A stretch of DNA of 64,000 bases, taken from contig NZ_LWHG01000033.1 of NCBI RefSeq assembly GCF_001625445.1, positions 62,001 to 126,000 of the forward strand, written 5' to 3'. The position numbers and the translations under genes were made by a program. The notes beneath the pieces are model-generated. The model was not told where the DNA came from. It saw only the letters and a program-made list of their open reading frames with translations, and did not search any database. How positions within the stretch are numbered: position 1 is the first letter of the stretch; each line of letters begins with the position of its first letter. Shown here in pieces: positions 6,470 through 48,924 of the stretch. The stretch is from Haladaptatus sp. R4. Its GTDB lineage: Archaea; Halobacteriota; Halobacteria; Halobacteriales; Haladaptataceae.

Positions 6470-9175
6470 TCAAATCCCGTCGATTAAACGGTTACAGAGT
6501 AGCGTTGCAAGTGGATGTTCTCCATATGAATCTTGGACCTGGAATGTAAAGGCCACGAATGATCCCTCATCATTTTCTCTCCGTTCAACGAATGGACTAC
6601 CCCAGTTTGCAAGCCATCCTTCAACGTATCCTACATGGAGTCGGTCTGTTGAAAGATCTAGGTTTGTTGCTACAGCACAGGGATAAATTCCTTCAAATTC
6701 CCAGCCAAGTCGTTTATTGTCACAGATGTCTGTCAATATTGGTGAATCTTGATAGAAGATTGAAGCTGCTCCGCGCCAGCTCTCTTCTTCGGGAACCAAA
6801 GAGTAGGTAAATGGGCCACCTTTTGTCATCTCACCATTTATTGTGGGGATATGTATAGCGATACCCCCATTAGCAACATAACTATTGATAGACGAATCTA
6901 TTTGATCAACAAATGCGATATCAACATTCGAATCCAACTGATGTGTTACTGTGATGCCCTCAGTTGCAAACCGAGATGCGAGCGACCCTTCGGCGTAAAC
7001 GATTTCGGACGGTGTTTCTCGATGATCTGAACTGAGTACTGTTATTTGTTCCTCAGTGCAAATACTCTCTCCATTACAGTCAAAGGTTACTTCTAACATG
7101 TCAGTTTCAACTGGCCCTTTAATATCTGGAATATCACATTTGATATTCTCAATCCTGCTAATCGAACAGGGCTTCACATTCTGATATGCCTGATTGGATT
7201 CACCGAACAAAGACCAATTTATTTGTCCGGATAGTGTCTTATGAGAATCGTTGACTATATGCATATTGAAGTTAAGCGTGTCTTTTTCGGACACAATATG
7301 GGACATTGGTTCAGCAACGACTGCAATTGGTGCATTCACTGCTGAATACTCTTCGTGAAATTCCTTCTCTTCACGAAGATAGTTAAGGATGCCATTGAAC
7401 TCCCATTCAATATCTGAGAGTTGAGTTAAGACATATCCAGCTGTCTTTTCTCGAATCCGGACCTGCTCTAGAATAGATTTAATCGAAATATACTCTCGCT
7501 GCTGCCAAGCGAATTCAAGCGCGTCGAAGTCGCCAAAAACACTTTCTAAATTAGTAGCGCTGAATCGCTCTTCAACACCTTCTGGACGCTTAAGAGGGTC
7601 AGTTAAGAAGTTATGAGAAAACCACGGGGGTTCGCCATTGTATCTATCCATGAGTGCAGAGAGATCCCCAAGACCCCAAGTTCCGAGTTCCGAGAGAATT
7701 ACCGGAGCATTGGTATCGCCGGGTTCCGTAGTAGCATAGTTGTCGGCACTATAATGACAAAGATGGTCTAAATCAGCCTCCCAGTTCGCTGCTCGATCAG
7801 GGCTCACAAAATACCGATGGAAATCGTTGATATCGGTCTCGACATGGGCCCACCCAGAGTTGTCACAAATAACTCGTGTTGTATCTCGATCTCGTAGCAG
7901 CTTGTAAGCATCAGAGAGAAATTGCTGTTTTTCCTCGTCGGTCCAAAGAGTCTCATCACCATCATAATGTCCAATTCCCCATTCTTCATTATACAGTGAC
8001 CAAATGACAACACTTGGCCGGTTGTAATCTCGACAAATGAGTCCGTTAAGTTGATTAAATACCTCAGAACGGGAGCGCTTTGTGTACTTAGACGGATTTG
8101 CTGGCTCCTCCCAGACAAGAATTCCTTGATGATCAGCTTCCTTAAGAAATGCTGGGTGTGCGGGTTTGAGGTGCTTTCTGATTAGGTTGAACCCAAGTTC
8201 TTTTGCGACCGCCACTTCCTCCGTAAACATATTTTCATCTGGTGGTCGATAGAGCGTCTTTGGGTAGAATCCCTGCTCGAGCACCCCACGTATATTTACA
8301 GGTTTTCCGTTGAGCAGGAGTTGTCTCCCGTCGCGCTCGAAACTACGCATTCCAAAATAGTCTGTGTACCTGTCTACAGTCTCATCATCGTCTGAGAGTG
8401 TCACCTCAGCATCGTACAGAACTGGAGAGGATGGAGACCAGTACGCAGGGTTGTCAAACGTGAGGTGTGTTTCATATCCATCTTCGGTTTCGTAGGCTGT
8501 AGACTGTGCAACAAGTTTACCATCCTGAAAGGCACAGACTTCGCAGGTCATGTCAGTCGCCATGTGAGGGCTAATATTAGCCCCAACAGAGACATGTGCA
8601 GTGTCAGTTTCTAGATCAGGCGTGATTTCTATTGATGTAACATGAATCTTAGGACGGAATTTTAACTCTACTGACTGCCAAATACCACTTACGCGGGTAT
8701 ACCAGGGATCTCCTTGCTTCCCATGCGGGATCTCAGCTACATTTTCCGGATCAGTCACGCTAACTGCAATAACATTTTTGCCTGGAGATATAGCGTCAGA
8801 TACGTTGAACTCAAAAGGAAGATATCCACCTTGATTATGACCAACTTGAGTCCCATTAATCCAGACAGTAGCCTCGTAGTCTACCGCACCGAACCTTAAA
8901 AATACATCTAACCCCTGAATATTATCAGAGTTCACATCTACGGTACGTCGGTACCAGCCAGTCCCCGTGTAGTCTCGGTAGATGTCTATCTCCTGCCAAG
9001 CGTGGGGGATACTCACCGACTGCGCTCGGTCTGGCCATTCTGCTTCAGGGTCGTACCACTCAGCGTCATAGCCTGTTTCATTTGGGTCTGTGATGAAAGT
9101 CCATTGATCATCTAAACTAATCGAATGACGATACGTATCGTCAGAATGCCCTCGTTCAGTTGTCAAAGTCACCAC
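6470..9175 (-). CDS. Glycoside hydrolase family 2 protein (beta-galactosidase-like)
   Basis: About 901 residues. The N-terminal sugar-binding domain (about 15-180) contains IPHAWQEIDIYRDYTGTGWY and PWYTRVSGIWQSV. An immunoglobulin-like domain follows (about 180-285), then a TIM barrel (about 285-600) with the GH2 acid/base in WSLYNEEWG (Glu397) and the likely nucleophile in ILSELGTWG (Glu496). The last 250 residues are accessory beta domains. There is no signal peptide, so it should act in the cytoplasm. The start is uncertain: GGAGGTG precedes tandem GTG codons at 9175 and is better spaced for a TTG at 9166. It is a paralog of the gene at 18704, and a third partial copy lies at 41595. GH2 members include galactosidases, glucuronidases and mannosidases; galactosidase is favoured by the neighbouring dgoD. 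Confidence 0.9.
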   Translation of the reverse strand: MVTLTTERGHSDDTYRHSISLDDQWTFITDPNETGYDAEWYDPEAEWPDRAQSVSIPHAWQEIDIYRDYTGTGWYRRTVDVNSDNIQGLDVFLRFGAVDYEATVWINGTQVGHNQGGYLPFEFNVSDAISPGKNVIAVSVTDPENVAEIPHGKQGDPWYTRVSGIWQSVELKFRPKIHVTSIEITPDLETDTAHVSVGANISPHMATDMTCEVCAFQDGKLVAQSTAYETEDGYETHLTFDNPAYWSPSSPVLYDAEVTLSDDDETVDRYTDYFGMRSFERDGRQLLLNGKPVNIRGVLEQGFYPKTLYRPPDENMFTEEVAVAKELGFNLIRKHLKPAHPAFLKEADHQGILVWEEPANPSKYTKRSRSEVFNQLNGLICRDYNRPSVVIWSLYNEEWGIGHYDGDETLWTDEEKQQFLSDAYKLLRDRDTTRVICDNSGWAHVETDINDFHRYFVSPDRAANWEADLDHLCHYSADNYATTEPGDTNAPVILSELGTWGLGDLSALMDRYNGEPPWFSHNFLTDPLKRPEGVEERFSATNLESVFGDFDALEFAWQQREYISIKSILEQVRIREKTAGYVLTQLSDIEWEFNGILNYLREEKEFHEEYSAVNAPIAVVAEPMSHIVSEKDTLNFNMHIVNDSHKTLSGQINWSLFGESNQAYQNVKPCSISRIENIKCDIPDIKGPVETDMLEVTFDCNGESICTEEQITVLSSDHRETPSEIVYAEGSLASRFATEGITVTHQLDSNVDIAFVDQIDSSINSYVANGGIAIHIPTINGEMTKGGPFTYSLVPEEESWRGAASIFYQDSPILTDICDNKRLGWEFEGIYPCAVATNLDLSTDRLHVGYVEGWLANWGSPFVERRENDEGSFVAFTFQVQDSYGEHPLATLLCNRLIDGI

Positions 9176-9486
9176 CTCCCCTTAGTAGGATCAGCCCGCT
9201 ATCTCTCCAGGAATTGGTATCCATGAAGCTAATCTGTGAAAATCTCATCTTCCTTTTCAATCACTTCAAAGTCGGGATTGAAGATAATTGTTGGGTATTT
9301 AGTCCACTATTTGATAATAATAAACTAGAGCGTATCCTGTAAGTATGGTCATGTATTACTAAGACTTCTGTAAGCAATGGGATATCGTTGCAAGGACATG
9401 CAGATATTATCTAACTCTTGCTCTGTAGGATTCTGTGTCATAATGGGAAACAACTTAGTCAAGCGAGGATATACTATCTCTAATTG

Positions 9487-10299
9487 ATGTCCTCCCCTCC
9501 TCACCAAGTGAAGTCAGACATTACCGCATTCAGAATTGTCGAAGCTCTCAACCAGTGGGAAGAGATGGGTGTCACTGAAATCTCTCATGAAACCGGAATC
9601 TCAAAGAGTTCGGTATTCAAGCACTTGGACACACTTCGTCACCTTGGCTATGTCACTAAATCTGGATCATCATATATGCTTTCACTGCGCTGGTTCCAGG
9701 CCGGACAACGAATTCGTGACAGACAAGATGTCTTTGAGATCGGTAAGTCGGAAGTAGATCACCTGGCCCGTCGTGTTGGTGAAACAGTTTCGCTGGTCGT
9801 CGAAGAAGGTGGTGATGCCGTGTATCTCTATCAAGTACGTGAAAGTCAACAACTACTCAGTCCCGTTGAAGAGGGGGGTCGAATTCCTGCTCCCATCTCC
9901 ATAGGTGGGAAGGCCATTCTTTCGTACCGACCCCCTGAAGAAATCCGAGCTCTATTTAAACGAACTAATCCTGATAAGGATGTTGATCAATTTCTATCTG
10001 AACTACGCACACTCAGGGACCAGCGTATGGTCATTGGGCAGGGAAACCCTCAACAAGGTGCATTGAGTGCTGGAGCATTCGAAGGTCATCGCCATGTGGT
10101 GGCTCATAACGAACCATACAGAGATCTTAAAAGCGTGGCAGTTCCCATCCGCAACACTGAGGACTATGCTATCGCAGCAATCGAAGTGAGCGGTTCCGAG
10201 TCGAGCCTTGACAGCCGACGGCTTGAAGAGGAGATCGCCAGTGTTCTAGTAAATGCTGGAAAAACTATCGAAACGAACCATCTTCACGCATCTAACTGA
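9487..10299 (+). CDS. IclR family transcriptional regulator
   Basis: 270 residues from the ATG at 9487. The N-terminal helix-turn-helix (TEISHETGISKSSVFKHLDT, about residues 30-55) is followed by the IclR effector domain (about 80-260), with GETVSLVVEEGGDAVYLYQV, SIGGKAILSY and VAVPIRNTEDYAIAAIEVSG. It is divergent from the GH2 gene at 6470 across a gap of about 310 bp. IclR regulators in haloarchaea commonly control sugar or sugar-acid catabolism, so this is the best candidate regulator of the first sugar block. A near-palindromic 24-bp sequence repeated at 10766 and 18357 is a possible operator, though it could belong to another regulator. Confidence 0.93.
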   Translation: MSSPPHQVKSDITAFRIVEALNQWEEMGVTEISHETGISKSSVFKHLDTLRHLGYVTKSGSSYMLSLRWFQAGQRIRDRQDVFEIGKSEVDHLARRVGETVSLVVEEGGDAVYLYQVRESQQLLSPVEEGGRIPAPISIGGKAILSYRPPEEIRALFKRTNPDKDVDQFLSELRTLRDQRMVIGQGNPQQGALSAGAFEGHRHVVAHNEPYRDLKSVAVPIRNTEDYAIAAIEVSGSESSLDSRRLEEEIASVLVNAGKTIETNHLHASN

Positions 10300-11390: not shown

Positions 11391-12467
11391 TCAACGGTTG
11401 ATTTGAATTTGTTGCTCCGTCTCAGCAGCGCGATGGATGGCTTCGATCGCTTGCAAATCCTCGAGACCTTGCCTCCCATCGGGAGCATCATCAATCCCTT
11501 GGACGATGTTGACGGCAAAAAAGTCGAAAAGCTCGGTCATCTGGTTTATCTCAGGGGTATCGAAATCGACAGTCTGTTCTCCAATTGATAGCGACATATC
11601 TGTCTCTAAGTGATAGGCTGGTTCGATTCTGAGACGGCCGTCAGTTCCAATCACCTCTATATATGATTGAGCGTGCGCATTCTGACTGACAGAGCAGGTG
11701 GAATACAAACCTCCCTCAAACTCCAGAACGAATGATGCTAACTCATCTGGAACATCATCAAATGGCTCTTTGTCTGACCGCATCGACGCATGAACGGCGA
11801 TTGGATCCTTATTAAGCAAGAATCGAGACGTGTTGATGTGGTAAATTCCGAGGTCCATTACAGAAGTTCCATATCCGGTCAGGTCAGAATTAAGTCGCCA
11901 CTGATCTGGGTTTGGAAAAATGTCAAAAATAGATTGGCAGTTGACACCGTTGACGAACCGTGGCTTACCGATTGTCCCACGTTGTATCAGTTCCCGGGCA
12001 CGACGTACTGTTGGCGTGGTCTGCATACGATAAGCAACAAGTAGGTTAATACCTGCAGATTCACATCGTTCAACCATTCTCTGAGCGCGGTCCACATTAG
12101 CTTCTATTGGCTTCTCACAGAGAACTGCTTTTCCGAGTTCTGCCGCGGTTTCTGCATAGTCAAGATGATACGCGTTTGGAGTACATACATACACGGCATC
12201 GTACGCATCTTGTGCATCTCCTTCATGGAATTGTTTGTAGGAAAGGGTTTCAGCCATAGTGGCGATGTCTGTAGCCACACGTTCGCCCTTCTCTCGAGAT
12301 CCGGTAACAAGTACAGATACTTCACAATAATCAGATGCTTCAATGGCTGGAATTACTTCCTCTATAGTCCACCATCCAAGTCCAATAAGTGCTATCCGAA
12401 TTGTCTCATCAGGAGATGTATCCCAATCACGATGCTCAAAAGTATCCAAATATTTGGTTATCGACAT
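11391..12467 (-). CDS. Gfo/Idh/MocA family oxidoreductase
   Basis: 358 residues. The N-terminal Rossmann fold begins with IRIALIGLGWWTIEEVIPAI; here the usual GxGxxG is GLGWWT, so the nucleotide loop is atypical. The family motifs VYVCTPNAYHLDYAETA and AVLCEKPIEAN follow, the latter with the conserved Lys of EKP. The C-terminal half is the alpha/beta substrate domain. Such enzymes oxidise or epimerise sugars with NAD(P). It lies downstream of dgoD on the same strand, about 100 bp away, so the two are probably co-transcribed and act on related sugars. The substrate cannot be read from sequence. Confidence 0.9.
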   Translation of the reverse strand: MSITKYLDTFEHRDWDTSPDETIRIALIGLGWWTIEEVIPAIEASDYCEVSVLVTGSREKGERVATDIATMAETLSYKQFHEGDAQDAYDAVYVCTPNAYHLDYAETAAELGKAVLCEKPIEANVDRAQRMVERCESAGINLLVAYRMQTTPTVRRARELIQRGTIGKPRFVNGVNCQSIFDIFPNPDQWRLNSDLTGYGTSVMDLGIYHINTSRFLLNKDPIAVHASMRSDKEPFDDVPDELASFVLEFEGGLYSTCSVSQNAHAQSYIEVIGTDGRLRIEPAYHLETDMSLSIGEQTVDFDTPEINQMTELFDFFAVNIVQGIDDAPDGRQGLEDLQAIEAIHRAAETEQQIQINR

Positions 12468-12563: not shown

Positions 12564-13718
12564 TTACCACTCGGCCACACTCCCATCTTTGTGCCGCCAT
12601 ACTGGATTATGCCAATTAACCGATTGCTTGGACTGTTCACGTACATATTCCTCGTCGATATCGATTCCGAGTCCAGGTCCGTCCGGAATCGAGACGAACC
12701 CGTCCTCATAATCGAATACGCTCGGCTCAGCGAGGTAGTCAAGAACGTCGCTTGTCTCGTTATAGTGGATGTCAAGACTTTGCTCCTGAATGAGTGCGTT
12801 TGGTGAGCACGCATCAACCTGAATACAAGACGCCAGCGCTATCGGCCCCAATGGACAATGAGGTGCGAGTGCGACATCGTAGGCCTCGGCCATCGAAGCT
12901 ATTTTCTTAGTTTCAGTGATCCCCCCTGCGTGAGAGAGATCTGGTTGTATTATATCGACTGTTCCACTCTCAAACACTTCTTTGAAATCCCACCGAGAAT
13001 ACATTCGTTCCCCCGTTGCAATCGGAATCGACGTTTGTGTCGCGATAGACGGAAGTGCATCGTTGTGATCCGGAAGCACTGGTTCCTCGATGAACATCGG
13101 CTCGTAAGGCTCGAGTGCCTTCGCAAGCCGTTTCGCCATCGGCTTGGCTACTCGTCCATGGAAGTCGACCCCGATATCAACGTTGTCACCAACCGTCTCT
13201 CGTACATTCCGAAGTCGTTCAACAGCTTCGTTAATAGTGCTAGGATCGTCAACTCGCTCCATTTCTTCAGTTGCGTTCATCTTCAGTGCAGTGAATCCCG
13301 CATCAATTTGCTTCTTGGCTTCATTCGCGACTGCTGAAGGACGATCGCCACCAATCCATTGATAGACGCGGATCTGCTCGCGTGCGGCACCACCCAACAG
13401 TTCGTATACAGGAGCATCGAAGTGTTTCCCCTTGATGTCCCAAAGCGCTTGGTCAATTCCAGCGATAGCAGACATAAGGACAGGCCCTCCTCGATAGAAA
13501 CCCCCACTGTACATCGTGCTCCAGTGATCTTCAATAGGAGCGGCTGGTTTACCGACAAGGTAGTTATCCATTAGTTCCTCAACTGCAGCCCTCACGGTGT
13601 GTGAGCGACCCTCAACGACGGGTTCTCCCCATCCAACAATGCCGTCAGTAGTTTCGACACGCAGGAATAACCATCGAGGCGGCACCTCAAACAACTCGTA
13701 ATCGGTAATTTGGGTCAT
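12564..13718 (-). CDS. dgoD: D-galactonate dehydratase
   Basis: About 384 residues from the ATG at 13716-13718; an upstream TTG adds only three residues. It matches DgoD of the enolase superfamily along its whole length: an N-terminal capping domain (PPRWLFLRVETTDGIVGWGE, FYRGGPVLMSAIAGIDQALW), then a barrel with DFHGRVAKPMAKRLAKALEP, FIEEPV and GERMYSR, the catalytic His in APHCPLGP, and the C-terminal WRHKDGSVAEW tag. It should convert D-galactonate to 2-keto-3-deoxygalactonate in the oxidative (De Ley-Doudoroff) galactose route. It is divergent from the sulfatase at 13944 and probably co-transcribed with the downstream oxidoreductase. The remnant kinase nearby would have used its product. 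Confidence 0.92.
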   Translation of the reverse strand: MTQITDYELFEVPPRWLFLRVETTDGIVGWGEPVVEGRSHTVRAAVEELMDNYLVGKPAAPIEDHWSTMYSGGFYRGGPVLMSAIAGIDQALWDIKGKHFDAPVYELLGGAAREQIRVYQWIGGDRPSAVANEAKKQIDAGFTALKMNATEEMERVDDPSTINEAVERLRNVRETVGDNVDIGVDFHGRVAKPMAKRLAKALEPYEPMFIEEPVLPDHNDALPSIATQTSIPIATGERMYSRWDFKEVFESGTVDIIQPDLSHAGGITETKKIASMAEAYDVALAPHCPLGPIALASCIQVDACSPNALIQEQSLDIHYNETSDVLDYLAEPSVFDYEDGFVSIPDGPGLGIDIDEEYVREQSKQSVNWHNPVWRHKDGSVAEW

Positions 13719-13943
13719 TGTGAGCAAGACCGTAGAGTAAATCGGATACCTTAGTTAAAGATGTATCGTTACAAATCTTTGAGCTGGTTGACATAGAAAC
13801 TCTCCTGGTTGATTTGAGTTGACAGGCATATATGAACTGCTCATAGGATCGACTAGCGACCGTTGTGAGTCTGAGCAAGAAGGTGAATATTGAACTAACC
13901 AAATGGCACAACATACATTCATAGTGGCTCTAATATCATAACA

Positions 13944-15446
13944 ATGCCCGACAAACCAAATATCGTCGTTATTATGACCGATCAGCAACGAGCAGATGCT
14001 TGCTCTCGTGAAGGATTTGAGCTTGATACAACGCCATTTCTCGATGAGTTTGCACAGAATGGAACATGGTTTGATCGTGCCTATACTTCGACTCCAGTGT
14101 GTTCTCCGGCACGGACAAGCTTTCTAACCGGTCGTTTCCCAACCGCAACAAATGTATGGACAAATAAACAATCGGACGCTGTTGTAAATGAACAGGATTT
14201 GTTCGACTTACTAAACGATGCCGGCTATGAGACGGCCCTAATTGGGAAGAACCATAGCTACCTCACACCTGAAAAAACTGACTTTTGGGCGGAGTTTGGT
14301 CACTGGGGAGCGATAGACGAGCAAACAAAGTCTGCTCGGACTGAAGAAGATGAAAAATTGGAAGCATACTTAGATAACTTGTCACTCTTCAACGGTGGTG
14401 GGGGATGGGATTCCAAGCCAGTTCCAACTTCAGTTGAGAGTCAATGTGCTTACCGGTGTGTTTCACAAGCACAAGAGTGGATCAAATCACGTAATAATGG
14501 AGACCCATTTTTTACTTGGCTTTCTCTCCCAGAACCACATAATCCCTATCAAGTGCCAGAACCGTATTTCTCGATGTTCCCATCGGAAGAATTGCCCCCT
14601 ATCTCCGCTGGAACCGAAGTTCTCGAGGATAAGCGGTTCAAATGGAAGTGGCTCCGGAAGATTGGTGTCAAGAGAGCAAAGCGGGAGGCACCCAACGCCA
14701 AATATGACACAGAAATCTTGCCGCGATTACGTTCGTCATATTACGGGATGCTGAGAATGATTGATGACCAGGTACGCCGCTTCGTCGAGTTTCTCGAAAC
14801 GGAGAATCTCCGTGAAGATACACTCATTGTGTTCCTATCAGACCATGGGGACTTTGCCGGCGATTATGGACTCATGCGCAAAGGCGTTGATCTCCCAGAA
14901 GCGACAGTTCGCATCCCGCTCATATTCAATGGACCCGGTGTAGAAGCGGATCGATCACCAAGTACCGCTCACGTCTCGATTGTCGATATCATGCCGACGC
15001 TCTGTGATGTTGCAGGTGGTGACCATCCTCCGGGAACTCAAGGTCGATCATTGTGGACATTACTTTCAGGGACTGATGTTGAATGTTCCAGATTCAACAG
15101 CGTCTATGTAGAAAGCGGGTGGGGAGGACGACACTCTAGTGCTGACGATGTTCCGAGTCTCGATGAGGCTAGGAAAAATGAACTCAATCCACACACACAG
15201 TCAGGTCGGATAGGAATGATCCGTCGAGACAAGTGGAAGTTTGTCTTTGATATGGAAGATGGCCCCGAATTGTACAACCTCGTGGAGGATCCCGCTGAGA
15301 AAAAGGATTTGAGTGCTGATCCTGCTCACGATACGTTGCTTCAAGAACTGTATGCAGATTTCTCAACATGGTCACTATACGCACGCGATACGCTACCCGA
15401 AAAACGCTCAATTCAAAAGGTCGATCCCTCTGCCAAACGACACTGA
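13944..15446 (+). CDS. Type I sulfatase (cytoplasmic)
   Basis: 500 residues. It begins directly with the metal-binding strand NIVVIMTDQQRAD and has no signal peptide. The sulfatase signature is CSPARTSFLTGR with Cys53, the residue to be converted to formylglycine. GKNHSYL and the second metal site FLSDHGDFAGDYGLM are also visible. The C-terminal part (RRDKWKFV, ELYNLVEDPAEKKDL) is the usual small sulfatase subdomain. It should remove sulfate esters from imported sugars. Divergent from dgoD and followed 250 bp later by the GH51 gene on the same strand. Activation needs a formylglycine-generating enzyme, which is encoded at 40562. Confidence 0.93.
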   Translation: MPDKPNIVVIMTDQQRADACSREGFELDTTPFLDEFAQNGTWFDRAYTSTPVCSPARTSFLTGRFPTATNVWTNKQSDAVVNEQDLFDLLNDAGYETALIGKNHSYLTPEKTDFWAEFGHWGAIDEQTKSARTEEDEKLEAYLDNLSLFNGGGGWDSKPVPTSVESQCAYRCVSQAQEWIKSRNNGDPFFTWLSLPEPHNPYQVPEPYFSMFPSEELPPISAGTEVLEDKRFKWKWLRKIGVKRAKREAPNAKYDTEILPRLRSSYYGMLRMIDDQVRRFVEFLETENLREDTLIVFLSDHGDFAGDYGLMRKGVDLPEATVRIPLIFNGPGVEADRSPSTAHVSIVDIMPTLCDVAGGDHPPGTQGRSLWTLLSGTDVECSRFNSVYVESGWGGRHSSADDVPSLDEARKNELNPHTQSGRIGMIRRDKWKFVFDMEDGPELYNLVEDPAEKKDLSADPAHDTLLQELYADFSTWSLYARDTLPEKRSIQKVDPSAKRH

Positions 15447-25473: not shown

Positions 25474-25639
25474 ACTCAAGAATCTAAGTGCGTCAGCATA
25501 AAATCTTCGCTTATAATAGTCAAATATCATATATGGGTGCATAGATCATCTGCTTGGGGAACAGAAGTCCATCTATTGACTCCTTCTACAATCAAGATTA
25601 GAAAAATTACAGATATTGTGCATACAACGATTGTGAATT

Positions 25640-26978: not shown

Positions 26979-27220
26979 CAACTTAATCAACCTCCAGCCA
27001 TCTACTTAACTTTGCGGTTGTCGGAATAATCAACGACGGACGGTATTACAACGCGTCACATTGCTGTATTGAATTCCTGCTCGATATCGAAGAATGTACT
27101 CTCGGATTAATTGCGAACATGGACAGTATAACATCTAAATAACTGAATTTTAGGCATCTAGAGATAGTGAATTATACCATTAACCCGAAGAATGAAATAT
27201 CTGCTCACAGTATTGGATCC

Positions 27221-37501: not shown

Positions 37502-38692
37502 GTCGAACCTCCAGAGGGTAAATGGATTCGGCGTCTGTTCCGACGTGAACCCTAAATTTATCCGATTTCATCCTTGTCTTGTGATATTCATCTACATACA
37601 AGAAGATTGTGTTCGTCTCACACTCATTGTCTGGGCGACAAGTGATAATCGTATGTGATGGAGGAAATCACATCGATTTTCCTGGTTAACTGGATTACTT
37701 CTACACTCCCCTAATCGTGAATAGCAGTTATAACAGGTCATTCATAACCACTCATAAGATATTATAATTATTTTTAGTTTGGATTGATGGGGTTTTAATC
37801 GACCAGCACAAAACCAATTTGTTTCTCCACAAGAAACGAGTGCCTGGTCATATCCTCCGTTTGCTAGCGATTCCACCAGTAATCAACCGATATATTCGTG
37901 GCATTACATAGATAGGTTTGTAATAGCAAAAGATAATATTCGATCGGCATATACAGCAGTTTACATCGATATGATTGTAACGGTATAAGCTACACTGCAT
38001 TACTAATTAGGTATCAGAAATCCACTGTGCTGGTTCCATCATTTAGTTGGTGACGGTTCTGCCGACAAACTATCGAGAGATCTGAGGAAAAGATCTGGTG
38101 AGAAAAGGTGAGATTTTTCCCAGCAAGAAACGAGTTTAGCAATAGATGCATTTTGAACCAATTTACAAAGGAGTAGATGGAGATATTCAAGTTCTAAGCG
38201 TAACCGCACGAAATCAATTTCAAGATCATTCGAAGCAGATTTCTTTGACCATTTCATTAGGCCATTATGACAGTAACACTTTTCTACTGACCGACATTCG
38301 GCTTGTGATTCGGCTTCCTCAACAGGGTTGGTCTATCCTGCTCGGCCAGTTGATACAGATAGACCGCAATATCAAGCTCTTCAGCAAGCAATGGAACGAT
38401 CGCGCATGCCCGATGGGACCAGTCAATCGAGGAAGTTCCACAAGATGAAAAACAGTTCGTCATCTCTCAATACATCATAAAATATATTAGATGGCATATA
38501 AGTAATGGGAAGATAGCATTCATGTCTTATGCTTACAACGCTGTTAACGGATCAAATCCGACATTGATGCGCCAGATCCTACTACTTAGGATGCCGAAAC
38601 TCCCCGAAGAATTATCAATCTGATTGTGGATTCTGAGAATTTATGAATCCATTTTATACAGCACACAACTATGAAATTAGCTGAGAAACGAT
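37502..38692. other. Gene-free stretch
   Basis: About 1.2 kb with no supported gene. It is AT-rich around 37680-38050, and short frames lack motifs. It separates the transporter block from the enolase-family dehydratase. Confidence 0.45.
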
Positions 38693-40561: not shown

Positions 40562-41569
40562 ATGACTGATGACGATCCGGCGTGCTGTGCTGCCTCTCGG
40601 GGCGAGAACGCTCCACCGCCTGTGGAGGAGTGTATAGACTCCGCCACCATTCATCGTTCAACGACAAATCCAGCGACAACGAAGGACAATCGTACGGCGA
40701 GGATGACCAGATTAAACGGTGGAACATTTACCATGGGGACGGATTCAGACATTGGATTCTCAGCCGACGGGGAAGGACCTGCTCGCGATGTGATCGTGGA
40801 TCCGTTCTACATCGACAAGTATGCCGTGACAAACGTGCAGTTCCTGAAGTTCGTCCGGGAAACAGGATACACAACGGACGCAGAGAGATATGGTTGGTCG
40901 TTCGTTTTCCAGGACTTCCTCACGGACAAGGCGCACGCTTACGTACTTCAGAACGTCAACGATACTCCATGGTGGGTCGCCGTTGAGGGGGCACTCTGGT
41001 TTCGACCGTACGGCCCTGGGTCCAACGTGATAGAGGATGATTTGCTGAAACACCCAGTGACGCATGTTTCTTGGCAGGACGCCGCGGCCTACGCCGACTG
41101 GGCTGGCAAGCGTCTCCCCACGGAGGCCGAATGGGAGTATGCCGCTCGTGGCGGTCTCAAGGATAAGTGCTACCCATGGGGTGACGAACTGAAGCCAGAC
41201 GGTAAACACCGGTGTAACATCTGGCAGGGAGAGTTTCCCGAACGTAATCTCGCCGAGGACGGGTACCACAAGACCGCACCTGTGAACGAGTTTGAACCCA
41301 ACGGACATGGTCTTTACAATGTTTCCGGCAACGTATGGGAGTGGTGCGCCGACTGGTTCAGCGCTAAATACCATACAATAGATGCATACGATCATGACAA
41401 CCCAACTGGTCCCGATAAGGGCGACGAGCGCGTGATGCGTGGCGGATCGTATCTCTGTCATCGGTCTTGGTGTAACCGTTATCGAGTTGCCGCTAGATCG
41501 AAAAACACGCCCGACAGCTCAACCGGAAACATCGGCTTCCGATGTGTTGTCGACGCAGCCACTGAATGA
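40562..41569 (+). CDS. Formylglycine-generating enzyme (sulfatase maturation)
   Basis: 335 residues. It has the SUMF1/FGE-sulfatase fold: [78 protein letters not shown] and [20 protein letters not shown]. The two copper-binding, redox-active cysteines are present at Cys299 and Cys304, spaced as in authentic aerobic FGEs. The segment [14 protein letters not shown], typical of true FGEs rather than other SUMF1-fold proteins, is also conserved. It should oxidise the signature Cys of the linked sulfatases to formylglycine using O2. The N-terminus contains CCAASR, itself resembling a sulfatase motif. No signal peptide, so it acts in the cytoplasm like its likely clients. Confidence 0.93.
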
Positions 41570-41907: not shown

Positions 41908-43392
41908 TCACCAGGGTGCTTTCCTCTGGGGCAACGGATCGACCGCGCCGGAGAGTCGGTTAACTAGCCGATTGAGCAGCTCCCGTTTGACGTCGGCGTA
42001 AGCCGGGTCGTTCCATCGGTTGTTCCGTTCGACGGGGTCCTCAGTGAGATCATAGAGTTCGCCGACGCCGTCTCCCCGAACATGGACGAGTTTGTACCGG
42101 TCGGTCCTCAGCATCGTCGCTTGCGCGATAGCTTCGTTCTCGAGTTCGTCGTCAGCGTCGAGGGACAGCGAAGCTCTCCGTTCGTCGATATGCAGCTCAC
42201 TGAGAACCGACTCACGGTGCCGTTCAAGTGGTTCGTCGCCGTAGAGTCGTGGCCAGAGTGATTCTGCTTGCATGCCCGGATGCGGCTCCTCGCCAGCGGC
42301 TTCAAGCAGCGTGGGCGCGAGGTCGGACAGTTCGACCAACGCGTTGGTCTCGATGCCAGTTGGAAGCTCCGTCGGCCAGGAGATGATCAGCGGAACCCGG
42401 ACGGACGGCTCGTAAAAGTAAGGTCCCTTGAGGTAGATACCGTGGTCGCCGAGTAGTTCCCCGTGATCGGAGGTGAAGATCACGATAGTGTCCTCGCGCT
42501 GGTCCGTTCGTTCCAGTGCGTCGAGTAGTTGGCCAACTTGGTCGTCAATCAGGTCGCACATTGCCCAGTACGCCGCCCGGAGCAGACGATGGTCATTGTC
42601 GTCCATCTCCGGAAATGGGAATAGACCGGGCGTATTGTATGCATGGCGGTGGTCTTGGCGCTGGAAGACCGGTTTGTCGTCCAGTTCGCCCGATTCGTAA
42701 TTTGGTAGCGGTATCTCGTCGAGCCGATCGAGGTAACGTTCGAGGTATTCCTGTGGCGGATCGAACGGATGGTGGGGATCGAACATGTTGACCGAGAACA
42801 GCCAGGGCTCGTCAAAGTCCTCGTTCGCCTCGACGAACTCGACGCCTTTCTCGGTGCACCACGTCGTCTGGTGATGTTGTGCCGGGACTGACGTGGTCAC
42901 ATACTCAGAGTCCCGAACAGGCGTCCGCTCGAACTCGACGTTTCGGCTGGCAAGCCACTGGTAGTACTCGTTGGTCGGCCAGTGTCGTTGAGTGTCGTGC
43001 GACCAGTGGAACTGGGCGTAACCGTCGTCGATTCGCCGTTCCATCATTGGTCGTTCTTCCTCTTTTTCCGGGTTGCAGTTCGAGATATGGAGCTTGCCGG
43101 ACAACCCGCACGTGTATCCGTTGTCTGCCAACTGCGCAGTGACCAGCGTCTCCTCAGTAGGGATTGATTGGCCATTCTGTCGGACCCCGTTCGTACGAGG
43201 ATATCTTCCAGTCAAGAAACTTGCACGGCTCGGTGTACAAACAGGGCTCTGACAGTAACAGCGGTCGAACCGGACGCCATCATTTGACAACTGGTCGATG
43301 TTTGGCGTGTCAACAAATTCGTTACCGTAGCAGCCGAGCGTGTCGAAGCGTTGTTGATCAGTACATATCCAGAGGATGTTTGGATGTGTCAT
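41908..43392 (-). CDS. Type I sulfatase (cytoplasmic)
   Basis: 494 residues from the ATG at 43390-43392. It starts at once with NILWICTDQQRFDTLGCYGN, with no signal peptide. The signature CTPSRASFLTGR has Cys52 as the formylglycine precursor. LSGKLHISNC and FTSDHGELLGDHGIYLKGPY give further active-site and metal-site residues. The C-terminal region has LRTDRYKLVHV and ELYDLTEDPVERNN. It is convergent with the FGE gene. Differences from the other three sulfatases along most of the chain suggest different sulfate positions or sugars. Confidence 0.94.
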   Translation of the reverse strand: MTHPNILWICTDQQRFDTLGCYGNEFVDTPNIDQLSNDGVRFDRCYCQSPVCTPSRASFLTGRYPRTNGVRQNGQSIPTEETLVTAQLADNGYTCGLSGKLHISNCNPEKEEERPMMERRIDDGYAQFHWSHDTQRHWPTNEYYQWLASRNVEFERTPVRDSEYVTTSVPAQHHQTTWCTEKGVEFVEANEDFDEPWLFSVNMFDPHHPFDPPQEYLERYLDRLDEIPLPNYESGELDDKPVFQRQDHRHAYNTPGLFPFPEMDDNDHRLLRAAYWAMCDLIDDQVGQLLDALERTDQREDTIVIFTSDHGELLGDHGIYLKGPYFYEPSVRVPLIISWPTELPTGIETNALVELSDLAPTLLEAAGEEPHPGMQAESLWPRLYGDEPLERHRESVLSELHIDERRASLSLDADDELENEAIAQATMLRTDRYKLVHVRGDGVGELYDLTEDPVERNNRWNDPAYADVKRELLNRLVNRLSGAVDPLPQRKAPW

Positions 43393-44251: not shown

Positions 44252-45999
44252 CTACTCGGACACTGCCGGAATTTCGATTTCGTCGGAGACCGGCACGTCG
44301 TTGCGTTCGGCCCAATCCAGCCACCGCTCGGCGAGGTCACGTACTCGCTCCAGACAGTCGCCAGCGAGATCGGTCGTCTCGGTGGGGTCGGTTGAGAGGT
44401 CGTACAGTTCCCACTGATGGGCGGGAACGCCGTCGGTGCCCCCGAAGTTCTTCCCAACGAGCTTCCACGGCCCGTTTCGATAGGCGGCGTTGCCCTCGTG
44501 TTCCCAGGCGATGTCACGGTCACCGGATGGCTCGCCCTCGGTCAACAGATCTGCCAGACTTTCGCTAGTCTCGTCAAGGTCCGCCACTTGGTAGGAATTC
44601 CCATTGGCTGCCGTCCACGAGTCTGGGAGGTCGATGTCAAGCAGATCCAAGAACGTCGGCACGAAGTCTCTGGAACTGCCGACGCTCTTGACGATCCCGT
44701 CCCGTAGATCGTCGGCGAGACCTGACCAGTCGACGACAAGCGGCGACCTGACTCCGCCCTCGTGGCCGAAGTGCTTGTAGAGTCGATACGGCGTGCTTCC
44801 AGCGGTGGACCAGCCAGCGCCGTACTTGAGGCCCTGGTCGGCAGCGGCCGTTCCCATGTCCGCGAGCGACTCGTCCGAACGCGGCCCGTCATCGGCTCCG
44901 TGACCGAACTCGTGCCACTCGTAGCACGCCCCGTTGTCGGACATGAAGAGTACAATTGTGTTCTCCCGCTGACCGTGCTCAACCAGGTCGTCGAGTATGC
45001 GACCGACGTTCCGATCGATCATCTCGACCATTGCTGCGAACACAGCCATGCGCCGTGCCAGATCAGTCTGACGCTCTGCCGAGAGAGAGTCCCACGCTCT
45101 CACCTGATGAGTATCCCAGTCCTCGCGAGCGGGTACGTCACTTCGCGGGGGTAAAACGATGTCGTCGGGAACAACGCCACGCTCGATCATCCGCTGAAGA
45201 CGGTCCTCTCGAATCACGTCCCACCCCGCCTCGTAGGTCTCGACATACTCTTCGATCAGCGACTGCGGGGCTGCCAATGGGAAGTGTGGTGCGCCGTAGG
45301 CGAGGTACAGGAAGAACGGCTGTCGCCCCTCGCTTTCGTCCTGAGAGCGGTCGTATTCGAGGAAGTCGATTGCATAGTCCGTGATGGCGTCAGTCTGATA
45401 GAACGTTTCTCCCTGTTCGTACTCGGTCGATTTCGGGTCGTGCTGGTAGGAGCGTTCTTCGACGGCGTCCGATAGGAGTCGGTAGGTGTCTGAGGAGTGG
45501 GAGAGCAAGCAGGTATCGGGGTCCCACGGCGACTCGGCATACCCAGTAAATCGGAACGAGTGATCGAAGCCGCGGACCCGCGGTCCCGGGGGGCGTCCGA
45601 TTCGCCGAAGTTTGCCGTCGAACCCAGGTGCCACTTTCCCGAGTGGTACGTTCGGTACCCCTCCTTGCCGAGTAGTTCCGGTAGGAAAACGTGATTCTGC
45701 CGCAGTTCGCCGTCCCCAGTCAGTACGTCGAAACCCAGACGATGGTTCGTGTGACCGGTCATGATCGATGCTCGCGTCGGCGAACAGCGTGGCTGGACGT
45801 AGAAGTCGCGAAACTGTACACCACTCTCGGCAATGTCGTCGACGTTAGGTGTCGATATCTCGCCCCCGTAACAGCCGAGGTCGCTGTATCCCAGGTCGTC
45901 GACAAGGGCGAGGACGACATTCGGCCGGTTATCCTCGCTCGTTGATGGTGCTGCCGTCGTTTCTGACCGATCAGCGGTGTCCGAGGAGTTGTCAGTCAT
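44252..45999 (-). pseudogene. Type I sulfatase gene with a frameshift
   Basis: Two overlapping frames together give a full sulfatase of about 580 residues. The N-terminal frame (from the ATG at 45997-45999) has RPNVVLALVDDLGYSDLGCY, the signature CSPTRASIMTG with Cys72, and HSGKWHLGS. The frame then shifts, and the second frame continues with RGFDHSFRFTGYAESPWD, FFLYLAYGAPHFPLAAPQ, IVLFMSDNGACYEW and ELYDLSTDPTETTDL to the stop at 44252. The break is between about 45560 and 45625; loss of one base in the C/G run near 45592 would explain it. Either a real inactivating mutation or a sequencing error in a homopolymer. No signal peptide. Confidence 0.88.
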
Positions 46000-46460
46000 C
46001 GGTAGACACCGCTCTTGTTTGCCAAATCAGCTGTCGGTACGCCTTGCTTCAGAGCCTCACGAAACATGAGTTAACATTTCACAGACAGACCATAAATATG
46101 TACCGTTCCTCTCAGTATCGACGGTAAGAACGTCTCACCAGCCAGATCTGATACAGTCAATCACGAATATGGTGCGACGTCGCATCAGAAAATGCCTAAC
46201 TATCAGAAATGAACAATTCCGAGACACAGCAGAAGTCGATGCTGCCCGTAGTGCTAACTGGAGAATTCTTCGAACGGGCTGTGGCCCAGTAGCGGTTGCA
46301 CACGATCGGTAACAGAGGAACCATCCGCCTCATGTGACGCACTTCTCCCTCTCCGTCGGATTCTCCGAATCGGTGGGCATATTTGTTGTGTGATAGTCTA
46401 CGCTAAATCAATCATGGCACCATTCCCATACGTTCCCCAAAACGTTGTATAGACCGGCAC
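46000..46460. other. Gene-free stretch
   Basis: About 460 bp between the frameshifted sulfatase and the IS6-family element. No coding frame with recognisable sequence was seen. It should hold the sulfatase promoter on its left side. Confidence 0.4.
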
Positions 46461-47201
46461 GGCACTGTCTAGTCAACGATTCTGCACCTCCTCGACAGGC
46501 GTGCGGTTGTCAAGCGCTTGATTCGGTCGCTGGAAATTATAGTAGTAGACGAAGGCGGCGAGCCAGCGCACAGCGCTGCTCGGGCGCCCATCTACGTCTG
46601 ATGAAATCGGTCGATTCGAATGGTGAGCGTCTGGAACCACTTTTCGATCAGATTCCGATCGACGTAGTCGAGGTGACCACGCAGATCGCACCGCGCTCGC
46701 GCGGTCAAATGTCCCATCCCGTCGACGAGAAACGTCGTCTCAGAGAAGTCGTGTTTCTTGGCCAGCTGGCCGAGAAACGCGGCGGCTGGGTTCCGTTCCC
46801 TGCAGCTCTGAAACGACCGCACCGAGCAGCAGTTTCGTCTCAATATCGATCGCGGCGTACAGCCAGTGCTGCTTGGTACCTATTTTCACCGCTGTTTCGT
46901 CGACCGCGACCCGCGACGGCGAAGCCGTCAGAGGGTCTGGGGTGGCCTCCACAGTGCAGTGAACCCACTGCCACACCGCTTGATGTGACCGGACCACACC
47001 GAACTGCTCGAGCGCGGCGGCCGTCTCACGAAGCGAGATTCCTGTCGAGTGAAGTCGCACCGCGAGCGCTCTCAGGGCACTCGCGGTGCTCTCGTCGTCC
47101 CAGCATTCAAGCGGATTCGAATCCAGAGAGACAGTGAACGGTTCTTGGGCAGCCCTAACATCTGTCTCCAAGAACTGTTCGTTCTTTGCCTAGACAGTGC
47201 C
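46461..47201 (-). mobile_element. IS6-family insertion sequence (degenerate)
   Basis: About 741 bp bounded by terminal inverted repeats: GGCACTGTCTAG at 46461-46472 and its complement at 47190-47201. The match extends imperfectly inwards (CAA then GA). The interior holds one IS6-type transposase frame broken by frameshifts. Size and single gene fit IS6. No clean 8-bp target duplication is visible at the edges, so one flank may have been rearranged after insertion. It lies between two sulfatase genes and cuts the 5' end of the zinc-ribbon gene to its right. Confidence 0.8.
46473..47171 (-). pseudogene. IS6-family transposase, frameshifted
   Basis: Three successive reverse frames read as one IS6 transposase of about 230 residues. 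The N-terminal part (LRALAVRLHSTGISLRETAA, HQAVWQWVH) leads to the first catalytic Asp in SRVAVDETAVKIG. The second frame has FLVDGMGHL with the next Asp, then RNLIEKWFQTLTIRIDRF with the catalytic Glu. The third frame ends FVYYYNFQRPNQALDNRTPV. Frame changes fall near 46740-46845 and 46600-46690, so no intact protein is made from this copy. It could move only with a helper transposase. Confidence 0.82.
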
Positions 47202-47518
47202 ACGGCAACGAATATCTCATCCTCTCTAATGAAACGGACGGGGGAGAGAGGGAATCGTGGCTTACACGGCCGGTAGCCATCGCAGAGATTGCCGCAGGAG
47301 AGCTGCTCGAAAGTACGTCCATACCAAATCACGAGCGAGCCCCGTCCGCCTATATTTTTGGAATGTTTTTACGATCGTGCCCTTCATGTGGAGCAGACGT
47401 AATCCAAGAAAACGCGGGAAGTTGCTGTGGTCCTTCACAACGAGGTCCTGATGGTGAACCGTTGAAAGCGTTCGTCTGTAAGAATTGCTCTGTTCAGCTC
47501 TTTGTTTTTGAAAGATAG
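47202..47518 (+). pseudogene. Zinc-ribbon protein truncated by the IS6 element
   Basis: About 105 residues remain, beginning HGNEYLILSNETDGGERESW. The C-terminus has two Cys pairs (CPSCGADVIQE, then FVCKNCSVQLFVFE), consistent with a small zinc ribbon. The frame is open back to a TTG at 47186, but that codon lies inside the insertion sequence. The original start therefore seems to have been lost. I do not recognise the family. It is tail-to-tail with the sulfatase at 47527, leaving only 8 bp. Confidence 0.55.
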
Positions 47519-47526
47519 GGCCTCGT

Positions 47527-48924
47527 TTAGCGCACGTTGGGGGCTTCAAACGGCTCTGTATATGGGTGGAGAACATCTTGCTTGTCGACGACAGCACCGT
47601 CAGGCTTAGAAACGGCTCCTTCAAGAAGTGGGTCGTTGGTCCGCTCCATCCAGTTTCTCAAGCGATTTCGAAGATCTTCGTAGACGTCCTCGTATCTGGA
47701 ATCGTCTACAAGGTTATTTCGCTCGGTTGGGTCGTGAAACAGGTCATAGAGTGCCTCGGTAGGGGGCTGTTGCTCGAAGAATCCAAGATCGAGGAAGAAT
47801 TGTTTCGTTGGCCCGTTGTCCGTGTTTGGGGCGACGTGCTGATCGTAGTTTTCGTCGAATCGCCGAACATACCGGTACCGTTCTGTTCGGATAGATCGCT
47901 TTGGCTCGTATGCAGCATGATACGTAACCTCGCTGAAGACCTCGTTCCGAATCGAGTCAACGGTGCCGTGGAGTAACGGAAGTATCGATTCGCCTTCTAC
48001 CCAATCTGGAACCGGTAATCCAAGAAAGTCACAGAAGGTGGGGAATAGGTCGATTTGAGAGACGAGTTCGTCCACGATGGTTCCTCGTTGCAAATCCGCT
48101 TCATCGGGGAACCGGGCAATCAACGAAATCCCGGTGCCCCCTTCCGAGAGATTGCACTTCATCGTTGGAAATGGGATTCCGTGATCGGTCGTGAATAAAA
48201 ATAGTGTCTCTTCGAGTTGGTTCGTCGCAGTAAGCGTATCGATTATCCGACCGACGCATGTATCGACGTACTGAGCTAGAACGTGGTACGCAGCCATCTC
48301 CTCCCGTACTGGTGGAACATCGGGTAATGGTTTCGGTGGCCCCACGTAGTTCGAATCCATTACGTCTTGGTCAAGTGGCAACGGCTGGTGGGTATTGTCG
48401 AGCCCAACCGAAAGGAAAAACGGGCGATCGGCGTTCTTAGTGCTGGATTCTTGAAGATAGTTAACTGCAGCCTCGGTGATTGCGAGATCGTGTCGAGTAT
48501 GGTCGTGATCGATCGGTAGTTCGCCAATTGCTGACTCGTCACCCTCAAGAACACGGTCGTAGCCTAATACTCCTCCAACGTTGACTCCCTCCTGGGCTGA
48601 TGTTGCGATTTCGTGTTGCTGGCCGGCGAGTACCGTTTCGAATCCCTGGTGCGAGAGATAGTTCGCAAGGTGATGATCGTAGTTATCTATTTCAAACCCA
48701 CGGTGGGCTAATCCGATTAGTCCATTTGAGTGTGGACTGGAGCCAGTGAGAAGTGCCCCTCGACTTGGTGAACAGGTTGGTGCAGCGCAGTATGCATTCC
48801 TGAAAAGGGTCCCTTCATTGGCGAGTCGCTGTAGGTTTGGTGTATCTATATCATGGCCATAGGGGCCTATGTATCGACCAGTATCGTCTGTGTGAACGAT
48901 TACGATATTTGGATCCGTGCTCAT
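47527..48924 (-). CDS. Type I sulfatase (cytoplasmic)
   Basis: 465 residues from the ATG at 48922-48924, beginning NIVIVHTDDTGRYIGPYGHD with no signal peptide. The signature CSPSRGALLTG has Cys51 as the formylglycine precursor. LAGQQHEIATS replaces the usual GKWH motif, so the active-site His is kept in a changed context. The second metal site LFTTDHGIPFPTMKCNLSEG is typical of heparan N-sulfatase-like and related families. The tail has LYDLFHDPTERNNL. The fourth sulfatase in the window. Confidence 0.93.
   Translation of the reverse strand: MSTDPNIVIVHTDDTGRYIGPYGHDIDTPNLQRLANEGTLFRNAYCAAPTCSPSRGALLTGSSPHSNGLIGLAHRGFEIDNYDHHLANYLSHQGFETVLAGQQHEIATSAQEGVNVGGVLGYDRVLEGDESAIGELPIDHDHTRHDLAITEAAVNYLQESSTKNADRPFFLSVGLDNTHQPLPLDQDVMDSNYVGPPKPLPDVPPVREEMAAYHVLAQYVDTCVGRIIDTLTATNQLEETLFLFTTDHGIPFPTMKCNLSEGGTGISLIARFPDEADLQRGTIVDELVSQIDLFPTFCDFLGLPVPDWVEGESILPLLHGTVDSIRNEVFSEVTYHAAYEPKRSIRTERYRYVRRFDENYDQHVAPNTDNGPTKQFFLDLGFFEQQPPTEALYDLFHDPTERNNLVDDSRYEDVYEDLRNRLRNWMERTNDPLLEGAVSKPDGAVVDKQDVLHPYTEPFEAPNVR

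Follow-up and report, generated by a model that had tools for sequence, protein, structure and literature searches.

Among open-licence papers, we found one study of acidic-polysaccharide use in haloarchaea, which describes chondroitin/hyaluronan loci with a sulfatase in Natronoarchaeum and Haloarcula (Sorokin et al. 2026; PMC13260240), and no paper joining haloarchaeal sulfatases with arabinogalactan. According to the sections of that article dealing with the loci, they lie on plasmids, span regions of up to 46 kb and bring together a sulfatase, an ATP-binding cassette (ABC) oligosaccharide importer, nearby mobile elements and, in at least one locus, a GH2 enzyme. Similar features are seen in the DNA analyzed here, a 64,000-nucleotide stretch of Haladaptatus sp. 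R4 (hereafter the window), in which a putative locus for the use of a sulfated glycan occupies positions 6470 to 48924. The published loci rest, however, on a PL8 lyase, GH88 and GH154, for which we obtained no Pfam match among 40 window open reading frames (ORFs); the window locus is thus not of this glycosaminoglycan type. It has GH51, DgoD, Gfo6 and a formylglycine-generating enzyme (FGE), and the word formylglycine does not occur in the main text of the article (PMC13260240).

DgoD and an oxidative entry of galactose are also known from the DeLey-Doudoroff pathway of Haloferax volcanii (Tastensen et al. 2020, as cited in PMC11219438). Unlike in that pathway, the DgoD of the window sits with sulfatases and glycosidases, and the scan of 40 window ORFs, which did not extend to the rest of the genome, gave no 2-keto-3-deoxygalactonate (KDGal) kinase; a complete DeLey-Doudoroff route, with KDGal kinase and 2-keto-3-deoxy-6-phosphogalactonate aldolase in the locus, was not recovered. 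A second parallel is the Agrobacterium route, which runs through galactarolactone cycloisomerase and keto-deoxy-galactarate dehydratase: the window likewise has an enolase-family cycloisomerase (36% identical) with a KdgD-like enzyme of the DapA family. Finally, the locus follows the logic of the polysaccharide utilization loci of Bacteroidota, in which sulfatases, glycosidases, a transporter and a regulator are combined. It differs from them in having ABC import and, as judged by sequence, cytosolic sulfatases; SusC and SusD had no Pfam match among the 40 ORFs, which sets it apart from this class.

We interpret the locus as a mosaic of two catabolic systems, probably on a plasmid, and give this reading a probability of about 0.58. 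One system would import sulfated arabinose/galactose oligosaccharides and desulfate them in the cytosol, and the other would be a uronate/aldarate module. Gene content, catalytic motifs and co-conservation were observed directly; the substrates, the order of the steps, the cytosolic location (judged by the lack of signal peptides) and the joint regulation we infer. The genes named in an earlier note on this DNA were all recovered at their positions by scans against Pfam (40 window ORFs) and NCBIfam (20 ORFs) and by the ORF lists.

Recurrence of the sulfatase, FGE, GH51, DgoD, IclR and importer genes

Our sample comprised 292 Halobacteria genomes, and the P values given throughout ignore relatedness. 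The sulfatases, FGE, GH51, DgoD, IclR regulator and Opp-type importer of the window probably form one system, because the set recurs in two haloarchaea of other families, genome G161 of our sample and Halosolutus gelatinilyticus. In G161, it occupies roughly 44 kb on a contig of 4.48 Mb, with protein identities of 51 to 77% except for the substrate-binding protein (24%). GH51 and DgoD are the most similar (77% each), followed by FGE (72%), sulfatase 1 (67%), the importer ATPase (63%), sulfatase 2 (62%), the IclR regulator (57%, beside a GH2a at 56%) and the permeases OppB (52%) and OppC (51%). This locus also contains two more long-type GH51 enzymes, GH2 enzymes and further sulfatases. Searching three 20-kb stretches of it did not return the lyase, enolase-family enzyme, Gfo/Idh/MocA oxidoreductases B and C or TIM barrels of the middle block (see below) as best hits. 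The Halosolutus genes lie, according to their annotation, within about 18.5 kb of a plasmid and encode the importer, GH51, a sulfatase, DgoD, two short-chain dehydrogenases/reductases, IclR, FGE and a sulfatase; identities to the window proteins are 73% for DgoD, 71% for FGE, 64% for the ATPase, 57% for GH51 and OppB and 53% for OppC.

Partial sets were found in Saliphagus, Halomarina oriensis, G156 and Halomontanus rarus. DgoD is only about 0.1 kb from FGE in Halomarina oriensis and about 1.1 kb in G156, and in Halomontanus rarus, a 31-kb part of a 176-kb plasmid (NZ_CP119798.1) contains dgoD and FGE together with ten genes annotated as sulfatases. Long-type GH51 is present in 4 of the 31 genomes that have FGE. 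In 4 of these 31 genomes, DgoD lies at most 30 kb from FGE, compared with 0.81 expected (Poisson P = 0.009), and when the window genome was left out, the count was 3 compared with 0.76 (P = 0.04). Similarly, homologs of the second GH2 enzyme (GH2b) and FGE were common to 8 of the 292 genomes (P = 0.001), or to 7 without the window genome (P = 0.0035). Co-location of the sulfatase, FGE, GH51, DgoD, IclR and importer genes thus looks to exceed chance.

Sulfatases and their maturation enzyme

Four sulfatases, one of them frameshifted, had been reported for this region, and our scans agree with this. Each matched PF00884 above the cut-off and carries a CxPxR motif, which places them among the type I (formylglycine) sulfatases of family S1. 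Sulfatase 1 (13944 to 15446, plus strand; CSPAR, 175 bits) and sulfatase 2 (41908 to 43392, minus strand; CTPSR, 174 bits) are closest in the PDB to 4upi and 4upl, both titled "sulfatase family protein"; orthologs of sulfatase 2 (55 to 62%) lie close to FGE in other haloarchaea. Sulfatase 4 (47527 to 48924, minus strand; CSPSR, 151 bits) has as its nearest PDB relatives an S1_8A sulfatase and an N-sulphoglucosamine sulphohydrolase, and its 67% ortholog is found 11 kb from FGE in Halomicrobium urmianum. Sulfatase 3 (44252 to 45999, minus strand; CSPTR; GC content 61%) is split in this assembly, with the sulfatase profile divided between the overlapping ORFs 45256 to 45999 and 44252 to 45634, a break near 45577 to 45600 and the CxPxR motif in the first reading frame only.

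The intact FGE gene (40562 to 41569, plus strand; PF03781, 278 bits) encodes 335 residues, of which 47 to 331 align with the solved FGEs 6s07 and 5nxl (387 and 364 bits), presumably from Thermomonospora curvata. Its CHRSWC sequence corresponds in the alignment to CHRSYC in human FGE and to CHESYC in 6s07. The earlier note had credited this enzyme with both catalytic cysteines, and the alignment confirms it: FGE-domain homology together with the copper-binding cysteine pair identifies an aerobic FGE. By a hand count, we take these cysteines to correspond to residues 336 and 341 of human FGE. A different assignment, in which the second cysteine would be the residue after RYR (a valine here), was overruled by the alignment and the residue count. 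The FGE is proposed from its sequence to convert the CxPxR cysteine to formylglycine. It shares its cysteine pair with the 6s07/5nxl enzyme and human SUMF1 and differs from them in falling into a separate haloarchaeal group next to the FGEs of bacteria.

Because both the C-terminal part of a second FGE, interrupted by stops and a frame change (46223 to 46455, minus strand), and IS6-like DNA (46461 to 47225) adjoin it, the broken sulfatase 3 probably once stood beside its own FGE, which has since decayed next to an IS6-type element. By megablast, the latter is 87 to 88% identical to two annotated haloarchaeal IS6 transposases and 77 to 87% identical to four unannotated places on plasmids. A decayed second FGE with five stops (319368 to 319898 of contig G265:C2) also occurs near an intact FGE in Halomicrobium urmianum, in a region that has the closest sulfatase 4 relative seen and three Gfo/Idh genes nearby.

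Relatives of the window FGE (E ≤ 1e-20) were detected in 31 of the 292 genomes, the window genome included, and in 18 of 77 genera. The midpoint-rooted tree contained 108 sequences, two more (L011 and L060) having been dropped for internal stops, and the CxxxxC motif is present in all 35 haloarchaeal and all 72 bacterial relatives kept. The 36 haloarchaeal rows form two groups, one of 26 that includes the window (support 100/98) and a distant one of 10 (100/100). The window group branches among Chloroflexota, Actinomycetota, Acidobacteriota and Bacillota enzymes, with only middling support for the forks (84 to 91). The tree needs two label changes, of which strongly supported branches force just one, and it fits a horizontal gain of FGE. 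The article that noted formylglycine-sulfatases in Halobacteria in 2016 also proposes a horizontal gain for archaeal formylglycine-sulfatases (PMC5066984). Given this record, the 2026 locus and the presence of FGE in 31 of 292 genomes, the earlier statement that such systems are rarely described in archaea fits less well.

A second type of haloarchaeal FGE, 45 to 50% identical to that of the window, was observed in 11 genomes. In ten of them (G082:C3, G078:C2, G245:C3, G044:C5, G267:C3, G274:C2, G109:C2, G228:C1, G223:C2 and G026:C1), a sulfatase in an open frame of 776 to 844 codons lies within 6 kb, and in the eleventh (G262, assembled in 720 contigs), FGE and sulfatase are on separate contigs. 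This is a separate FGE/sulfatase pair.

Predicted cellular location

By eye, no signal peptide was recognizable in the first 45 residues of the two GH2 enzymes, GH51 or sulfatases 1, 2 and 4. In the loci fetched from other genomes, which were picked mostly via FGE and are not a random sample, 56 of 59 sulfatase-like ORFs have CxPxR and none has the serine form alone (overlapping loci counted twice). For 44 of the 54 distinct CxPxR ORFs, at most 75 residues separate the most upstream start from the motif, so that there is little room for a signal peptide; the starts of the remaining 10 may be over-long. Four of the ORFs show a twin-arginine-like stretch. These features suggest a cytosolic site for glycosidases and sulfatases alike.

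No secreted endo-enzyme or depolymerase was detected among the 40 window ORFs or among 10 flanking proteins, chosen from the larger ORFs of the only partly scanned contig flanks and also free of glycosidases; other endo-enzyme families were not searched. A marginal GH43 is encoded on another contig of the genome. Extracellular cleavage of the polymer must come from elsewhere, and the earlier description of the set as complete goes too far as regards this step and the KDGal kinase.

Glycosidases, galactonate dehydratase and importer

The left block begins with GH2a (6470 to 9175, minus strand; Pfam Glyco_hydro_2 domains), in which NEE would be the acid/base and SELG the nucleophile motif; catalytic residues named here for GH2, GH51 and DapA-family enzymes are presumed ones. 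Its orthologs in Halorhabdus amylolytica and G161 (56%) adjoin an IclR ortholog (57 to 58%), as GH2a of the window adjoins a divergently transcribed IclR-family regulator (9484 to 10299, plus strand; IclR_C and HTH_IclR). Gfo6 (11391 to 12467, minus strand), a sugar 1-dehydrogenase of the Gfo/Idh/MocA family, scores 532 bits with the "D-xylose 1-dehydrogenase Gfo6" model NF041392 (curated cut-off 350), and it may act on galactose. It is followed by DgoD (12564 to 13727, minus strand), a D-galactonate dehydratase with 677 bits for NF010624 (cut-off 311). The long-form GH51 (15693 to 17834, plus strand; Alpha-L-AF_C and ASD1_dom) has alpha-L-arabinofuranosidases as top PDB matches and an intact GNE/TEL pair. 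GH2b (18704 to 21373, plus strand; assigned by Pfam) lacks NxK, which we take to be the carboxylate motif of Escherichia coli beta-glucuronidase; GH2a has NxK at 289, 666 and 677, not aligned to the E. coli site.

The importer consists of a fused two-domain OppD-OppF-type ATPase (30274 to 32490; two ABC_tran and two oligo_HPY stretches in Pfam), an OppC/DppC-type permease (32669 to 33769; PF00528), an OppB/DppB-type permease (33720 to 34730; PF00528) and an SBP_bac_5 substrate-binding lipoprotein (34884 to 36653; PF00496), all on the minus strand. The binding protein starts with a twin-arginine, lipobox-like sequence (RRR...AGC). Halosolutus, G161, Haloarcula marina, H. turkmenica and H. pallidirubidus also have the fused ATPase; H. 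urmianum has a split version, and a split pair is found in H. turkmenica in addition to the fused form. Identities of permeases and ATPase to their counterparts in left-block and middle-block loci are too similar to assign the importer to either.

A proposed uronate/aldarate module in the middle block

The middle block contains a DapA/KdgD-type lyase or dehydratase of the DHDPS/DapA family with its lysine in GIKYA (24532 to 25542, minus strand; PF00701), Gfo/Idh/MocA oxidoreductases B (25905 to 26990, minus strand) and C (29154 to 30233, plus strand), two AP_endonuc_2 TIM-barrel proteins (a, 27167 to 27970, plus strand; b, 28178 to 29053, minus strand), all four assigned by Pfam, and an enolase-superfamily cycloisomerase/dehydratase (38693 to 39838, minus strand). 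In Haladaptatus pallidirubidus, a 75% ortholog of oxidoreductase C adjoins a TIM barrel, and TIM barrel b has a 76% ortholog.

The lyase is nearest to PRK03620 (137 bits, under the cut-off of 278), scores 113 bits against a cut-off of 374 for TIGR03249 and reaches 48 of 390 bits for the archaeal 2-keto-3-deoxy-(6-phospho)gluconate aldolase model. As the curated cut-offs were not reached, we call it KdgD-like only in the sense that it may work like KdgD. In this it differs from its counterpart in the Agrobacterium route, as does the genome in having no close uronate dehydrogenase: with one haloarchaeal query, the best match was 42% over 174 residues. The latter may be a related short-chain dehydrogenase, for example a haloarchaeal glucose-6-phosphate dehydrogenase, an enzyme that PMC8506132 describes, in the passage concerned, as modeled on uronate dehydrogenase.

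For the enolase-family enzyme, whose KxK and His positions are presumably catalytic, the closest PDB sequences are 5olc (243 bits), by its title the 3,6-anhydro-D-galactonate cycloisomerase of Zobellia galactanivorans, and the Agrobacterium galactarolactone cycloisomerase 4ggb/4hpn (238 bits). The predicted structure, built from 10 sequences with a mean predicted local distance difference test score (pLDDT) of 82, gave Z scores of 46.3 for 4hpn, 43.7 to 44.8 for three Bordetella enzyme entries, 43.2 for 5olc and 42.0 for 4ggb; the model ranks neither activity first, and both would fit. As to the structure comparisons in general, the lack of a match in their tables excludes nothing.

Lyase and enolase-family genes tend to occur together. 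Counting lyases of at least 55% identity over most of their length (23 weaker or partial rows dropped) and 32 of 41 enolase-family rows (at least about 49% identity), we found lyase carriers in 47 and enolase-family carriers in 31 of the 292 genomes, 30 having both. The two genes are within 40 kb of each other in 31 of 32 loci and within 5 kb in 14. Five of the six annotated plasmid regions examined contain a pectin- or uronate-labeled gene: GH28 in H. pallidirubidus; glucuronate isomerase with GH2 in H. urmianum (lyase only); glucuronate isomerase and aldehyde dehydrogenase in Natrinema; mannonate dehydratase in Haloarcula marina; and pectate lyase, GH28 and rhamnogalacturonan acetylesterase in Halopiger. 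The sixth region, from H. caseinilyticus, has none. The middle block thus looks like a uronate/aldarate module separate from the sulfatase set.

Proposed mechanism and competing explanations

In the reading that we prefer, the left and right blocks and the importer make up System 1. The Opp-type importer would take up sulfated oligosaccharides containing L-arabinofuranose and D-galactose; FGE would turn the CxPxR cysteine of the cytosolic sulfatases into formylglycine; the intact sulfatases 1, 2 and 4, but not the broken sulfatase 3, would strip sulfate; and GH51 and the two GH2 enzymes would trim the chain from its ends. Free sugar would then be oxidized by Gfo6, and DgoD would convert D-galactonate to KDGal as in the DeLey-Doudoroff route, the whole under control of the IclR regulator. 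System 2, the middle block, would degrade an aldonate or aldarate lactone derived from uronic acids by means of the enolase-family cycloisomerase and the KdgD-like lyase, fed by the Gfo/Idh enzymes and TIM barrels, and its substrate may be the uronic acids of that polymer or a different polymer.

Several observations weigh against this reading. In Halosolutus, the IclR regulator (31%), sulfatases (27 to 33%) and binding protein (27%) match at family level only. The binding protein is just 24 to 28% identical to its counterparts in the comparison loci, and importer cargo may therefore differ. A second DgoD is encoded elsewhere in the genome; galactose use thus need not depend on the window copy. 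The predicted structure of GH2b (mean pLDDT 80) is nearer to beta-glucuronidases than to galactosidases, the closest being a Bacteroides beta-glucuronidase (Z 29.1, 26% identity). PF00884 counts separate genomes with FGE (mean 9.3, n = 31) only modestly from 20 hand-picked genomes without it (mean 6.65; Mann-Whitney P = 0.017), all 51 having a match. In 6 of the 32 enolase loci, the immediate neighbor is another DapA-family paralog (38 to 39%) and not the window type; these six, dropped from our lyase count, lie 135 to 1060 bp from the enolase-family gene and include the otherwise unpaired locus in G100. Finally, no regulatory motif joining the blocks was found among 12 intergenic stretches. 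These shared 16 11-mers, several being overlapping words of the same few matches, compared with a mean of 9.6 (largest 15) in 50 single-base shuffles. The best candidate, ATCTGTGAAAATC, lies upstream of both GH2 genes (6 matches with at most 2 mismatches, 2.5 expected), where the 13-bp GATTTTCACAGAT is identical and in the same orientation at 9232 to 9244 and 18630 to 18642, 56 and 61 bp upstream of the GH2 starts. It could possibly be an IclR site. As a shared regulatory motif, it was rejected; it was missing at the orthologous sites of the three stretches that we searched.

The strongest competitor, which we regard as a serious possibility at somewhat longer odds than our own reading, is that a sulfated arabinogalactan set and a pectin/hexuronate set, perhaps with the importer, joined the plasmid separately and serve unrelated substrates. 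In H. pallidirubidus and on plasmid 2 of H. urmianum, middle-block genes indeed lie in regions where no sulfatase is annotated, and in Halosolutus, whose plasmid is circular, over 240 kb separates the lyase and enolase-family genes from the FGE cluster in both directions. Likewise, FGE and the enolase-family gene share just 6 genomes, which is not significant (hypergeometric P = 0.09), an Orc gene sits between the blocks, and GC content differs by block. The lyase and FGE, in contrast, share 12 genomes (P = 0.001); in G073, a Gfo/Idh pair and a TIM barrel homologous to those of the window (51 to 59%) are within 5.2 kb of FGE; and in Halocatena marina, the lyase is about 17 kb from FGE, with GH88 and two sulfatases just beyond it. 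The single pathway put forward in the earlier note is thus probable for the sulfatase, FGE, GH51, DgoD, IclR and importer genes, which recur together, and not supported for the middle block with its pectin and uronate neighbors.

Other substrates are less probable. Were the polymer carrageenan-like, the enolase-family enzyme would be a 3,6-anhydro-D-galactonate cycloisomerase and its KDGal would join that of DgoD, in line with 5olc as the best PDB sequence match. We consider this improbable, because galactarolactone cycloisomerase is an equally good match in sequence and because the lyase accompanying the enzyme is KdgD-like; the structure does not decide either way. Pectin genes are the neighbors elsewhere, and no carrageenase or GH127/129-type match was found in the 40 scanned ORFs. 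Hardly more probable is a haloarchaeal source of the substrate, namely hexuronic-rich sulfated S-layer or wall glycans of neighboring cells instead of an algal or plant polymer. Halobacterium salinarum makes a sulfated hexuronic-acid N-glycan, as the relevant part of PMC11980604 states. The uronate block and the uronidase-like GH2 model fit this idea, and a GH2 beta-D-galactofuranosidase ranks second among the PDB matches of GH2b. Arabinose, of which we know no instance in such glycans, is nevertheless indicated by the core GH51 and by the GH43 and two GH127-type proteins adjoining the GH2b homolog of Halorhabdus amylolytica, and no hexosaminidase match was found in the 40 ORFs. Least probable of all, and in our view very unlikely, are general arylsulfatase- or choline-sulfatase-like scavengers unconnected to the glycosidases: choline-sulfatases do follow 4upi and 4upl among the matches of sulfatases 1 and 2, but the sulfatases cluster repeatedly with GH51, DgoD and the importer, and free sulfate is usually plentiful in brines, which leaves little to be gained from scavenging.

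The locus is real and probably functional; its general kind is known, and the group in which it occurs has been little described. Co-conservation lends fair support to the sulfated arabinose/galactose assignment; neither the identity of the polymer nor the unity of all 42 kb is established. More tentatively, and with rather less confidence than in the mosaic itself, we hypothesize a recurrent, partly plasmid-borne haloarchaeal locus that imports first and desulfates inside, directed at a sulfated uronate-bearing arabinogalactan and equipped with a horizontally acquired FGE, cytosolic sulfatases and non-phosphorylating dehydratases (DgoD and the lactone cycloisomerase/lyase); among archaea, such a locus would correspond to the utilization loci for sulfated glycans, with a different topology. 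If so, haloarchaea would share in the breakdown of sulfated algal or plant polysaccharides in brines, for which we found the glycosaminoglycan loci (PMC13260240) as the single published precedent. FGE, cytosolic sulfatases, GH51, DgoD and the Opp importer would then form a searchable and testable gene set and provide halophilic sulfatases together with the matching maturase.

Genomic setting and further observations

The window corresponds to bases 62001 to 126000 of a 187,799-bp contig from a draft genome of 4.9 Mb. Because Pfam identifies Orc1/Cdc6 genes, a ParA-type ATPase and TFIIB in the window, and the left flank contains a TrwB-like coupling protein, the stretch is probably on a plasmid. 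One Orc1/Cdc6 gene (21830 to 23122, plus strand; Cdc6_lid and Cdc6_C) is the non-catabolic gene in the middle of the locus. Gene GC content differs between the blocks (left, 45 to 51%; middle, 47 to 56%; right, 52 to 61%), as a mosaic would show.

A different locus with some of the same families was noticed on a plasmid of the intertidal haloarchaeon Halocatena marina (NZ_CP109982.1, 92000 to 140000), where GH78, sulfatases, FGE, L-rhamnonate dehydratase, 2,4-diketo-3-deoxy-L-rhamnonate hydrolase, GH88 and a DapA-type lyase occur together; its substrate appears to be a sulfated polymer with rhamnose and uronate, for example ulvan. To the right of the window locus, Pfam identified a short DDE-transposase ORF (49421 to 49969), a MOSC-domain protein (51359 to 52180) and a cytochrome P450 (55583 to 56542). 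Within it, the roughly 2 kb between the binding protein and the enolase-family gene (36654 to 38692) contain no ORF longer than 133 amino acids and harbor a perfect inverted repeat, CCATGATGG, at 36944.

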